DNA of 64,000 bases from an uncultured Olsenella sp. (GTDB lineage: Bacteria > Actinomycetota > Coriobacteriia > Coriobacteriales > Atopobiaceae): assembly GCA_900314495.1 (NCBI GenBank), contig OMVJ01000011.1:1-64000 (forward strand). Reading direction: 5' to 3'. The position numbers and the translations under genes were made by a program. The notes beneath the pieces were generated by a model. It did not search any database, was not told the origin of the DNA, and saw nothing but the letters and a program-made list of their open reading frames with translations. Below are positions 136-40,432 of the stretch, in pieces; position 1 is the first letter of the stretch; each line of letters opens with the position of its first letter.

Positions 136-1326
136 TTACAGCAGCCGCAACACGCCGCGCACCAGCTTCTCGAAGTCCTCGGCGTGCTTCTCGGCCTCGG
201 CAAGCACGCTCTGGTGCGTCACGGAGCCATCGCCGGAGTAGTTGGCCGCCAACGTGAGGCCAAGCACGTTCATGTCCAGCGCGCGGGCCATGATGACCTC
301 GTTCACCGTGGACATGCCCACGTACGAAACGCCCAGCATGCGCAGGGCGCGGACCTCGGCCGCGGTCTCGAAGCAGGGGCCCAGCACGCCGGCGTACACG
401 CCCTCCTCCACGCTGATGCCCTGGTCGTCCGCCACGCCACGCGCAATGGTGCGCAGGTAGGGGCTGTAGGCGTCGGCCATGTCAACGAAGGGGGTTTCCA
501 CGTCGCGAATGTCATCCCACTCGGCCAGGGGGTTGCGGCCGGTAAAGTTGATCTGATCCGTCAGGATGCCCAGGCCCATGTGGGCGTTGCCCTCCACGGC
601 GCCCGTGGCGCACGCGAAGATGATGTCCCGGCAGCCCAGGTGGTGGGCGTGGCGCACCAGGGACGTGACCTCAGAGGCGCTGTAGCCCTGGTACAGGTGG
701 ATGCGGCCGGGGTACACCACCACAGGCACGCCGTCTATGCTGCCGATGGTGGCCTCAAAGCTGTGGCCGGCAACGGGCATGGCGTCGTCCGGGAAGCCCT
801 CGATCTCGTGGTAGTCAATCCTGCGGACCGGCTTCACCAGCTTGGCCAAATGACCCAGGCCCGACCCCAGCACAATTGCCACGGGATGCTCCACGGACGG
901 CTTGCACTTCTCGACGACTTCCTCGGTAACCACGGTGATTCCTTCCTCCTGGAGCAGGCGGGCAAAGGTGCCCTCCCCCTCCGTCAGCTTGCCAGTGTAC
1001 GTTCCATCGTAGATGAGGTGCACGCCGCAGGAGGGGCTCTTTGCCTTGAGCACGGCGAGCGGCGCCGGGTGCGCCTGCACCTTGGCAAGCGAGCGCGCGG
1101 ATCCCAGCCGGAACTCCGCCGTCACGTCCCTGCCGTCGCGCAGGAAGACGCGGCCGTTGCGCTGCTCCGCGGGGGGACGGGGCACCGGAAGGCCGGACGC
1201 GGCCTCCGGGCACACGCCCACCACCTCCACCTTGCCGCACAGGTCCTGCACGGCGGCGTTGGGCTTGGCCCCGCCGTCGTAGCGGCAGGGCACGCCCCGC
1301 AGGCACTCGCTGACTATTACGCGCAT
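136..1326 (-). CDS. DUF523 (TudS-like) - purine nucleoside phosphorylase fusion
   Basis: A 396-residue protein with two domains. Residues 1-142 are a DUF523 domain: Cys8 in SECLRG, Cys39 in VCPEAASG followed by PRPPAE, DVTAEF, and Cys100 in SPSCG. DUF523 includes TudS, a [4Fe-4S] enzyme that removes sulfur from thiouracil; the three conserved cysteines fit cluster ligands. Residues about 145-396 are a trimeric-type purine nucleoside phosphorylase (inosine/guanosine phosphorolysis): VLGSGLG phosphate loop, YPGRIHLYQGY, GPCFETAAEVRALR and VGMSTVNEVIMAR. ATG at 1326 follows GGGAG. The frame continues upstream, but without domain homology or a ribosome site. The fusion implies the two steps act on one nucleoside, perhaps a thiolated one; that coupling is inference. 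It is transcribed away from the membrane-protein gene upstream, separated by a hairpin. Confidence 0.85.
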   Translation of the reverse strand: MRVIVSECLRGVPCRYDGGAKPNAAVQDLCGKVEVVGVCPEAASGLPVPRPPAEQRNGRVFLRDGRDVTAEFRLGSARSLAKVQAHPAPLAVLKAKSPSCGVHLIYDGTYTGKLTEGEGTFARLLQEEGITVVTEEVVEKCKPSVEHPVAIVLGSGLGHLAKLVKPVRRIDYHEIEGFPDDAMPVAGHSFEATIGSIDGVPVVVYPGRIHLYQGYSASEVTSLVRHAHHLGCRDIIFACATGAVEGNAHMGLGILTDQINFTGRNPLAEWDDIRDVETPFVDMADAYSPYLRTIARGVADDQGISVEEGVYAGVLGPCFETAAEVRALRMLGVSYVGMSTVNEVIMARALDMNVLGLTLAANYSGDGSVTHQSVLAEAEKHAEDFEKLVRGVLRLL

Positions 1327-35802: not shown

Positions 35803-35846
35803 CGTCCGATGTGACCGGAGCGTTGTTGACGGGACGGGAGGCAACC

Positions 35847-36557
35847 GTGAACTTCTCACCCAGCGAGCAACAAGAAAAGCGGGCGGCAAAGGATGCGACA
35901 TCGCAGGCCCGAGAGGACATCTGTGCCATCGGCAAGCTGCTTTACGACCGCGGCTACGTGGCGAGCAACGACGGCAACATCAGTGTGCGTACCGGGGAAA
36001 ACGAGCTGCTCATCACTCCCTCGGGCGTGAGCAAGGGCCGCATGACACCGCAGATGCTTGTTCGCTGCGACCTTGACGGCAACGTTCTGCAGGACGACAC
36101 GTCGGGGCGCTTCCCCTCCTCCGAGATCAAGATGCACCTGCGCGTGTACAGGCGCCGCCCCGACGTCACGGGCGTCGTACATGCCCATCCCGTCTATGCC
36201 ACTGCCTTCGCCATTCTGCGTCACGACCTTGACCAGGCCTACCTGCCGGAGCTCGTGCTCAACTTCGGTAAGATTCCCGTTGCCCCCTTCGCCATGCTCT
36301 CCACGGACGAGGTCCCGGCGAGCATCGAACCCTATCTGGCCGACTACAACGGCCTGCTCCTCGCCAACCACGGGGCACTGGCATGGGGCAAAGATGTGTG
36401 GGCAGCCTTTGACCTCATGGAGACCATCGAGCACTCGGCCAAGATCTACAAGGCGGTGCACGACCTGGGCGGCGGCGTGGAGCTGACCGGCGACCAGGTG
36501 GAATACCTGACCAACCTGCGCGAGTTCTACAAGCAGCGCGCCGCAAAGAAGCAATAG
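35847..36557 (+). CDS. Class II aldolase, probably 5-deoxy/5-methylthio-ribulose-1-phosphate aldolase
   Basis: 236 residues, class II aldolase/adducin fold. ASNDGNISVRTGENELLITPSG binds the phosphate. The metal histidines are in VVHAHPVYATAFA and the later ANHGALAWGKDVW, with the acidic residue in AYLPELVL. Fuculose-1-phosphate and ribulose-5-phosphate enzymes share these motifs. The next two genes, mtnA and deoD, point to the Ald2 step of the DHAP shunt, which cleaves 5-deoxyribulose-1-phosphate or its methylthio form to DHAP and an aldehyde. That is inference from context. GTG at 35847 has GGGAGG; an earlier GTG at 35811 would lie at the transcription start. Confidence 0.82.
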   Translation: MNFSPSEQQEKRAAKDATSQAREDICAIGKLLYDRGYVASNDGNISVRTGENELLITPSGVSKGRMTPQMLVRCDLDGNVLQDDTSGRFPSSEIKMHLRVYRRRPDVTGVVHAHPVYATAFAILRHDLDQAYLPELVLNFGKIPVAPFAMLSTDEVPASIEPYLADYNGLLLANHGALAWGKDVWAAFDLMETIEHSAKIYKAVHDLGGGVELTGDQVEYLTNLREFYKQRAAKKQ

Positions 36558-36614
36558 ACGGTAGCAAGCCAGCCGCCTTAGAGGCACCCAGCTGGCAGCA
36601 GGAGAGGACATGCC

Positions 36615-37694
36615 ATGCAAGAGGAAAAGAGCGGAAGCGTCGTCAACGTGGACGCCGTTGAGCTGAAGGAGGATGGGAGCGCGGTCGTGATCATTGACCA
36701 GACGCTCCTGCCCAACCGCGTTGAGTACATTGAGCTCACCACGCCCAAGCAGATGTACGACGCCATTTTCCAGCTGAAGGTAAGGGGCGCGCCAGCCATT
36801 GGCGTCTGCGCGGGCTATTGCTATTACGTGCTCGCCCGCGGCATTGCCTTGGAAGCCGCCGACTGGCAGACCTTCAAGACCATGCTGCACATCCAGAAGG
36901 AATACCTCAACTCGTCTCGCCCCACGGCCGTGAACCTGAGCTGGGCGCTCAACCGCATGGAGGCGGTCGTCGACGCAGGCGAGGGCAAGCCCATGCCGGA
37001 GGTGCTGGACCTGCTTGAGGCAGAGTGCAAGGCAATCCATGCAGAGGACCTGGCGATGAGCGAGGCAATCAGCGCATACGGCGCGAGCCTCCTCAAGGAC
37101 GGTGACGGCGTGCTCACCCACTGCAACGCCGGCCCCCTCGCCTGCCTGGGCTATGGCACCGGTCAGGGCCCCCTCTTCTACGCGCACGACCACGGCAAGG
37201 AGGTGCACGTCTTTGCCGACGAGACCCGGCCCCTCTTGCAGGGCGCCCGCCTCACCAGCTACGAGCTGCAGCGCGCTGGCATTGACGTGACCCTCATCTG
37301 CGACAACATGGCAAGCATCGTGATGAAGAACGGCTGGGTGCAGGCCTGCATGGTTGGTTGCGACCGCGTGGCCATGAACGGAGACGCAGCCAACAAGATC
37401 GGCACCTCGGGCGTCGCCATCCTGGCCAGGCACTACGGCATTCCCTTCTACGTGCTGGGACCGACTTCCACCATCGACCAGAACAGCCCCACGGGCGACG
37501 ACATCAAGATCGAGCTGCGCAACCCGGACGAGATCAAGACCATGTGGTATGCGGAGCCCAAGGCCCTGCCCGAGGTCAAGTGCTACAACCCCTCCTTCGA
37601 CGTGACGGACCACGAGCTGATCACGGCCATCATTACCGAGAAGGGCATTTGCTACCCGCCGTACGAGAAGAGCCTGGCGGCACTGTTCGAATAG
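36615..37694 (+). CDS. mtnA: Methylthioribose-1-phosphate / 5-deoxyribose-1-phosphate isomerase
   Basis: 359 residues, eIF2B-like fold. Active-site motifs are complete: [32 protein letters not shown] with the catalytic cysteine, [17 protein letters not shown], the catalytic aspartate in [12 protein letters not shown], and [18 protein letters not shown]. It isomerises the aldose-1-phosphate to the ketose-1-phosphate. No mtnB, mtnD or other methionine-salvage genes are nearby. With the aldolase 57 bases upstream and deoD 81 bases downstream, the DHAP shunt is the better fit than the full methionine salvage cycle. Confidence 0.92.
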
Positions 37695-37775
37695 AACCTG
37701 GTGGCCACATCGCGCTACACTTCCCCCATGCAACTATTTTCACGTGGACCAGCACCCCCAAGAAAGGAAACACGC

Positions 37776-38498
37776 ATGTTTGAGACCGCATCCGCCTGCA
37801 TTCGCTGCAACAAGGAGGACGTCGCCAAGGTCGTCCTCATGCCTGGCGACCCCCTGCGCGCAAAGTTCATTGCCGAGCACTACCTGGAGAACCCCGTCCT
37901 CTTCAACGACGTCCGCAACATGCTGGGCTACACCGGCACCTACAAGGGCAAGCGCATCTCCGTCATGGGTTCCGGCATGGGCATCCCCAGCATGTGCCTG
38001 TATGCGCACGAGCTCTACACGCAAGTCGGCGTGGACGCCATCATCCGCGTTGGTTCCACCGGCTCCCTGCCCGAGAGCATTCACACCGGTGAGATCATCA
38101 TTGCCCAGAGTGCGGCAACCAACTCCAACATCGCCAGCCTCTACGACTCCCCCGTCAAGCTGGCACCCACTGCCAGCTGGGACATGCTGATTGACGCCGT
38201 CAAGTCCTGCGAGAAGCTGGGCGTGAACTACCACGTTGGTCAGGTCGTCAGCTCCGACGTCTTCTACAACCCGCGCGAAGATGCGCCCGTCCGTTACAAG
38301 GACCTGGGTCTGCTTTGCGTTGAGATGGAGACCGCCGGCCTCTACATCGAGGCTCAGACCAGCCACAAGAAGGCAGTCTCCATCCTCTCCGTCTCCGACA
38401 CCTTCTTCACTGGCGAGGCGCTCTCCGCCGACGCGCGTGAGAAGAGCTTCACGGACATGATGGAGGTCTCACTGGAGACCGCCCTCAACTACGCGTAG
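37776..38498 (+). CDS. deoD: Purine nucleoside phosphorylase, DeoD type
   Basis: 240 residues, hexameric PNP family. LMPGDPLRAKFIAEHYL (phosphate site), VMGSGMGIPSMCLYAHELY, VGSTGSLPESIHTGEI, the ribose-binding CVEMETAGLYIEA and SVSDTFFTGEALSAD with the catalytic aspartate. DeoD accepts adenosine analogues, so it could cleave 5'-deoxyadenosine or methylthioadenosine to the 1-phosphate used by MtnA. The start MFETASACIRC at 37776 has AAGAAAGGAAA. Codon bias is strong, which suggests high expression. It ends at a strong hairpin. Confidence 0.93.
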   Translation: MFETASACIRCNKEDVAKVVLMPGDPLRAKFIAEHYLENPVLFNDVRNMLGYTGTYKGKRISVMGSGMGIPSMCLYAHELYTQVGVDAIIRVGSTGSLPESIHTGEIIIAQSAATNSNIASLYDSPVKLAPTASWDMLIDAVKSCEKLGVNYHVGQVVSSDVFYNPREDAPVRYKDLGLLCVEMETAGLYIEAQTSHKKAVSILSVSDTFFTGEALSADAREKSFTDMMEVSLETALNYA

Positions 38499-39730: not shown

Positions 39731-40432
39731 CTATTGAGCCAGCGTCTGTACCATGTGCTCCACGATCTTGGCGCAGTGCTCGGCGGCCTGCGCCTCGAAC
39801 GTGGGGTAGTCCACGATGTCGGACCCGTCCGCCTTGTCGGAGATGGCACGAACAATCACGAAGGGAAGGCTGTTGAGCCACGCCGTCTGGGCAATGGAGC
39901 AACCCTCCATCTCGCAGCAGTCGGCGTGAAAGGTGCCCTTGATGCGCTGCTTGACGGCGGGGTCGCTCACGAACTGGTCACCGGAGGCGACGCGCCCCTC
40001 AAGCACGCCAATTTCTGGCGCGACCGCATGGACGGCAGCGACGGCCGCCCCGCGCAGCGCAGGGTCCGCGGCAAACGACTTGACGCCCATGCCAGGAACC
40101 TCGCCCGCCGCATAGCCAAAGACCTGCGCGTCAACGTCGTGGTGCACGGCATCCACGGAGACCAGTACGTCACCGATGTTGAGCTCGTTGTTGAGCGAGC
40201 CAGCCACACCCGTGTTGATCACGTGCGTGACGGCAAACACATCCGCCAGCACCTGCACGCACACCGCGGCGTTGACCTTGCCCACGCCGCACTGCACGAC
40301 GACCACCGGCATGCCGCCAATGGTTCCCTCGCAGAACTCCATGTTCGCGCGCTTCTCCACGCGCGAGACGTTCATGTTGCCCTTGAGGTGCCTGACCTCG
40401 ACGTCCATGGCACCGATGATGCCAATCTTCAT
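39731..40432 (-). CDS. mtnN: 5'-methylthioadenosine / S-adenosylhomocysteine nucleosidase
   Basis: 233 residues. IGIIGAMDVEVRHLKGNM at the start, VVVQCGVGKVNAAVCVQVL, NTGVAGSLNNELNIGDVLVS, ASGDQFVS, the substrate glutamates in CEMEGCSIAQTA and the catalytic aspartate in VRAISDKADGS. It removes adenine from SAH, MTA and 5'-deoxyadenosine. LuxS, the next enzyme for SAH-derived S-ribosylhomocysteine, is encoded just upstream on the same strand (43-base gap), so the two form the activated-methyl cycle. A plausible GGGAAGGGA ribosome site precedes the ATG. Confidence 0.93.
   Translation of the reverse strand: MKIGIIGAMDVEVRHLKGNMNVSRVEKRANMEFCEGTIGGMPVVVVQCGVGKVNAAVCVQVLADVFAVTHVINTGVAGSLNNELNIGDVLVSVDAVHHDVDAQVFGYAAGEVPGMGVKSFAADPALRGAAVAAVHAVAPEIGVLEGRVASGDQFVSDPAVKQRIKGTFHADCCEMEGCSIAQTAWLNSLPFVIVRAISDKADGSDIVDYPTFEAQAAEHCAKIVEHMVQTLAQ

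Follow-up and report, generated by a model that had tools for sequence, protein, structure and literature searches.

Organization of the tudS-pnp locus

The window analyzed here is the whole stretch of 64,000 nucleotides from one contig of an uncultured Olsenella sp. On its minus strand, at 136..1326, lies a single open frame of 396 codons without an internal stop, which begins with an ATG at 1326, ends with a stop codon at 138-136 and encodes a protein of 396 aa. Residues 3-136 (919..1320, minus strand) match the TudS, or 2-thiouracil desulfurase, family 2-thiour_desulf (PF04463, formerly DUF523; E 2.6e-40, 138.1 bits against a Pfam cut-off of 34.7). Residues 148-394 (145..885, minus strand) form a purine nucleoside phosphorylase (PNP) domain of the trimeric, PRK08202 type and match PNP_UDP_1 (PF01048; E 3.6e-38, Pfam). 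The C-terminal half also scores above the cut-offs of two NCBIfam models, NF006054 for PRK08202 purine-nucleoside phosphorylase (238.9 bits, cut-off 218) and TIGR01697 (204.9 bits, cut-off 197.1); by sequence, it is placed in the inosine/guanosine/xanthosine phosphorylase family. When the protein was compared with sequences in the PDB, the best solved relatives were TudS 6z92 for the N-terminal half (1.7e-26) and Thermus PNP 6tk9 for the C-terminal half (4.1e-45). A sequence-only reading of this DNA had placed a TudS-like domain fused to a PNP at 136-1326; the coordinates proved exact, and the Pfam, NCBIfam and PDB matches bear out the domain call. Identity with RudS (TudS-DUF1722) was ruled out, as the sole C-terminal Pfam match is PNP_UDP_1.

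The domains are joined by a short linker, VVEKCKPSVEH (residues 137-147; 886..918, minus strand). It has no internal Met, and a free PNP would therefore lack an obvious internal start. An AlphaFold2 model of the fusion as a monomer, built from 25 sequences, had a mean pLDDT of 86.4 and a pTM of 0.70, with a block of low pLDDT (68) at residues 141-150, in the linker region. The C-terminal part of the model aligns to PNP 6tk9 (Z 33.6, rmsd 2.0, 246 residues aligned). A structural search with the whole model returned matches to the PNP half only, and the relation of the N-terminal half to 6z92 is based on sequence.

A scan of positions 1-2600 for promoters and terminators found none. Since the contig starts at base 1 of the window, the sequence 3′ of the gene, including the tRNA side, is invisible in this genome. 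Among related loci, the upstream neighborhood is conserved and comprises SurA-like, HEAT, dehydrogenase (isocitrate or 3-hydroxyisobutyrate type) and DegV genes, and a tRNA-Thr(CGT) lies close downstream of the fusion in nearly all loci examined. The neighboring genes were checked for a link to thiopurine or nucleotide metabolism, and none was found.

Conservation of the two active sites

In TudS_A, the cluster is held by Cys10, Cys43 and Cys104, catalysis depends on Glu45, Ser101 and Ser103, Arg17 binds the phosphate of 4-thio-UMP, and Tyr18 and Tyr110 contact the base and the sugar (PMC10611767). The free iron of the [4Fe-4S] cluster removes sulfur from 4-thiouracil compounds; the best substrate is 4-thio-UMP, 4-thiouridine and 4-thiouracil are poorer by one to three orders of magnitude, and a purine substrate is not mentioned in that account (PMC10611767). 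TudS (6z92; PMC10611767) is a stand-alone protein of ∼160 aa, whereas the domain studied here precedes a PNP on the same chain. The cluster cysteines, the glutamate, the Ser-Pro-Ser-Cys motif, the substrate-binding arginine and both tyrosines align one to one.

The 6z92 alignment predicts Cys8 (1303..1305), Cys39 (1210..1212) and Cys100 (1027..1029; all minus strand) as the ligands of the [4Fe-4S] cluster, equivalent to Cys10, Cys43 and Cys104, respectively. Cys8 and Cys39 are present in 52/52 alignable fusions, as are the catalytic Glu41 (= Glu45), two residues after Cys39, and Arg15, the counterpart of the phosphate-binding Arg17; Cys100 is found in all 53 fusions. The last of these cysteines sits in the motif S97-P98-S99-C100, where S97 and S99 correspond to Ser101 and Ser103. 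Ser97 is kept throughout (53/53), and Ser99 is kept in 49 of the 53 fusions, with Ala or Thr in the other four. Tyr16 (= Tyr18) is replaced by Phe in four fusions and Tyr106 (= Tyr110) in two. The earlier claim that the DUF523 half is of the TudS type thus holds, with the cluster cysteines and the catalytic glutamate and serines present both in the alignment and in relatives. The same reading had allowed for a DUF523 subgroup with other chemistry; a subgroup with altered residues was not seen, and the key residues are intact. Fused TudS domains differ from other TudS of the class at positions 19, 21, 53, 88, 128, 133 and 138, none of which is among the catalytic or pocket residues of PMC10611767. 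A fusion-specific residue was sought at those catalytic and pocket positions, and none was found.

The PNP half shares the full domain, the fold and the catalytic residues of the trimeric class (PRK08202 / PunA / XapA; 6tk9, 1yqq), from which it differs by its N-terminal TudS extension and by a clade-wide cysteine at the position of human Asn115. The phosphate/ribose residues S155, R208, H210, Y212, S339 and H371 are present. We take Ser155, His188, Arg208, His210 and Tyr212 to be the equivalents of human PNP Ser33, His64, Arg84, His86 and Tyr88, and Glu320, Ser339, Asn362 and His371 those of Glu201, Ser220, Asn243 and His257. In the human enzyme, Glu201 is a purine contact and Asn243 a 6-oxopurine contact. 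Their counterparts, Glu320 (367..369, minus strand) and Asn362 (241..243, minus strand), are conserved in 52/53 and 50/53 fusions, respectively, and His371 is kept in 52/53 and Ser339 in 53/53. Trimeric PNPs of the PRK08202 class cleave 6-oxopurine nucleosides, and the corresponding active site is intact, in agreement with the PNP part of the earlier claim. The position of human Asn115 is occupied by Cys239 (610..612, minus strand), a signature of the clade. Cysteine is found here in 49/53 fused and 11/12 unfused clade members, and asparagine in 17/17 outgroup PNPs. Because unfused members share it, the cysteine is no mark of the fusion; the substitution, which runs through the whole PNP clade, could alter specificity.

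Distribution and history of the fusion

The sequence-only reading had suggested a survey of relatives, and the fusion proved to be widespread. Counting matches that span both domains, 96 of 140 genomes of family f1, to which the source genome belongs, carry it in one open reading frame (58-82% identity). Among the genomes sampled from the sister family f3, the fusion is present in 13, and eight have the same PNP without TudS. We take f1 to be, most likely, the Atopobiaceae, since the fusions include that of Olsenella sp. An293 and Olsenella belongs to this family. Beyond f1 and f3, a phylum-wide sample of 296 genomes yielded no fusion (E 1e-56), and in one scan of genome contigs the full-length matches came solely from Coriobacteriia-type records. 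Chance juxtaposition and assembly chimerism are ruled out by the uninterrupted frame together with the 96 full-length relatives. At one f1 locus (L169, genome G044), a frame change within the PNP half interrupts the fusion and marks either a pseudogene or a sequencing error.

In a tree of PNP domains, fused and unfused forms from f1 and f3 make up one group that excludes the PNPs of Bacillota, Eremiobacterota and other lineages; the tree requires five changes of the fused label. The TudS tree, which is weakly resolved (140 columns), clusters the fused domains with few single ones among them. The fusion is old, because both trees unite the fused forms of the two families, and the simplest course of events is a single fusion that predates the divergence of f1 and f3, followed by losses. 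TudS is missing from some f3 genomes and from most of genus g13; in these the PNP remains at the same locus, and the PNP-only genes of g13 retain the linker motif 'CKPSVEHPVAIV'. In g15 (L165), an intact TudS is followed by a PNP remnant of ∼110 residues that ends in 'LVREVLRLL', and in g6 (L163 and L164) the PNP has been lost and only TudS is left. Loss has affected either domain without taking the other; the two are separable in evolution.

In one genome of the related family f29 (G308, L194), tudS and pnp are neighboring but distinct open reading frames, separated by two stops within a shared reading frame, and the upstream genes, HEAT and isocitrate dehydrogenase, are those seen in f3. This arrangement may represent the state before fusion or a fission. 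We give it little weight because its PNP has diverged at the equivalents of Glu201 and Asn243, a divergence that may, judged by these residues, signify another specificity. A search for TudS adjoining the unfused PNP loci of other phyla (L040-L110) gave no match. The adjacent genes of L194 are compatible with neutral co-translation, whereby neighboring tudS and pnp genes became fused by loss of a stop with no kinetic coupling, and the PNP trimer merely trimerizes and stabilizes TudS. The repeated loss of either half fits the same account, as does a fusion of TudS to an unrelated GNAT domain in another family of the order, which suggests that TudS accepts partners readily. We nonetheless consider neutral co-translation unlikely: the fusion has lasted in most of f1 and in part of f3, down to ∼54% identity, and the short linker has been kept, whereas neutrality would predict more fission.

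Both halves are under purifying selection, and the PNP is the more constrained. The median dN/dS was 0.21 for TudS and 0.14 for PNP, rough values from ∼95 non-independent pairs of related fusions. A degenerate TudS was ruled out by these ratios together with the conservation of residues. The faster evolution of TudS and the loss of the domain in several lineages are what might be cited for a non-catalytic TudS half that serves the PNP as a structural or regulatory (iron- or redox-sensing) domain. We regard such a role as extremely unlikely, given that the cluster cysteines and the catalytic glutamate are universal among alignable fusions, that only Ser99 varies, in four of them, and that TudS survives alone where the PNP was lost (L165).

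Possible functions of the fused enzyme

The domains, the conserved residues, the conserved fusion, the purifying selection and the evolutionary separability of the halves are observed, and the protein is probably a bifunctional enzyme of nucleotide salvage whose single chain carries two independent sites. We infer the cluster, both activities, the oligomer and an action that is parallel rather than sequential. At the first site (residues 1-140), Cys8, Cys39 and Cys100 would hold a [4Fe-4S] cluster with one iron free, and this iron would accept the thiocarbonyl sulfur of a 4-thiouracil compound, best of all 4-thio-UMP, which would come from the breakdown of tRNA or from 4-thiouracil taken up by the cell. 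The products would be UMP (or uracil) and sulfide, and thiouridine would be kept out of new RNA. At the second site (residues 148-394), a trimer-forming PNP would convert (deoxy)inosine and (deoxy)guanosine to the base and (deoxy)ribose-1-phosphate. The two sites would thus act side by side on different products of nucleic-acid turnover, not one after the other on a single substrate. Parallel salvage fits better than a relay because the preferred substrates, a pyrimidine nucleotide and purine nucleosides, do not overlap and because the domains were lost independently. A relay on 4-thio-UMP is unsupported, since a pyrimidine nucleotide lies outside the substrates expected of a trimeric PNP. Possible gains from a single chain are co-expression or trimerization of TudS by the PNP. 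Two points count against parallel action: such long retention of a fusion would normally point to a functional link, which parallel reactions explain only loosely, and the PNP could, by analogy with the partner in RudS, redirect TudS. ThiI, the s4U synthase, is encoded in 137/140 f1 genomes, including the source genome, so the organism should make s4U in its tRNA; being nearly universal in f1, ThiI is uninformative for the s4U hypothesis.

The sequence-only reading had suggested successive action on one thiolated nucleoside, with thiopurines as a possible substrate: TudS would desulfurate 6-thioinosine, 6-thioguanosine or a free thiopurine, and the PNP would phosphorolyse the nucleoside. PNPs can use some 6-thio nucleosides, and a 6-mercaptopurine-type riboside serves in PNP-based phosphate assays. 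Both halves lie on one chain with their active sites intact, natural thiopurines occur in that bacteria making 6-thioguanine exist (PMC7994395), and the partner domain of RudS shifts the specificity of TudS (PMC11417400). The proposal is not supported and is very unlikely, however, as TudS prefers 4-thio-UMP, with purines unmentioned as substrates (PMC10611767), the fused domain has an ordinary TudS pocket that retains Arg15, Tyr16 and Tyr106 and shows no fusion-specific change at the tested positions, the domains were lost separately, and the neighboring genes have no thiopurine link. We give equally little credence to a desulfurase-phosphorylase in which the PNP half presents a 6-thiopurine (nucleoside) to the [4Fe-4S] site of TudS. 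Were it true, these gut and oral bacteria could render thiopurine drugs, or the naturally occurring toxin 6-thioguanine, inactive; thiopurine acceptance would bear on drug metabolism, and present evidence is not in its favor.

In C. difficile, a TudS is reported to protect from 4-thiouracil in the gut and to confer an advantage there (Munneke et al., 2025, as cited in PMC12210855). The TudS half of the fusion likely has the same role; PMC12210855 mentions no fused PNP. Fusion-bearing bacteria are predicted to resist 4-thiouracil. RudS, the TudS-DUF1722 eraser of s4U in tRNA, likewise joins TudS to a C-terminal partner and offers a precedent for substrate redirection (PMC11417400), but in TudS-PNP that place is taken by a complete metabolic enzyme, the PNP, instead of an RNA-binding domain. 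The understanding of TudS enzymes is recent, and TudS-PNP is a simple system in which to ask whether a partner redirects the TudS substrate. Among published TudS architectures, 58.9% are stand-alone and 40.1% are TudS-DUF1722 (PMC11417400). Among the open-access papers searched, we found none on DUF523/TudS or a thiouracil desulfurase fused to a PNP. TudS-PNP is a third conserved TudS architecture, a new arrangement of known families that covers most of one Coriobacteriales family and part of another.

TudS is also fused to a C-terminal GNAT acetyltransferase in family f2, probably the Eggerthellaceae (L005, L007, L008, L009, L010, L014, L015 and L021). The GNAT domain was identified as PF13302 in L007 (5.1e-28), and the other loci were assigned by sequence resemblance. 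TudS-GNAT is a further architecture, unmentioned in the published TudS accounts cited here. In L173 (f5) and L172 (f10), TudS carries a fused C-terminal region of ∼170 aa, which may be an unrecognized RudS-like partner. The region in L173 had no Pfam match, with DUF1722 not reported at E 0.001, and the L172 fusion adjoins a photolyase gene.

Apart from the fused PNP, no trimeric-type PNP was found in the source genome; the family is otherwise represented there by a DeoD-type PNP and an MTA/SAH nucleosidase. The DeoD-type gene stands in a row with genes for a class II aldolase and an MtnA-type methylthioribose-1-phosphate isomerase, the latter above the cut-off of TIGR00512, and the three together occupy 35811-38498 of the window (plus strand). 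The MTA/SAH nucleosidase gene is nearby at 39731-40432 (minus strand). Together these genes look like a cluster for 5′-deoxyadenosine/MTA salvage, similar to a DHAP shunt, that uses DeoD.
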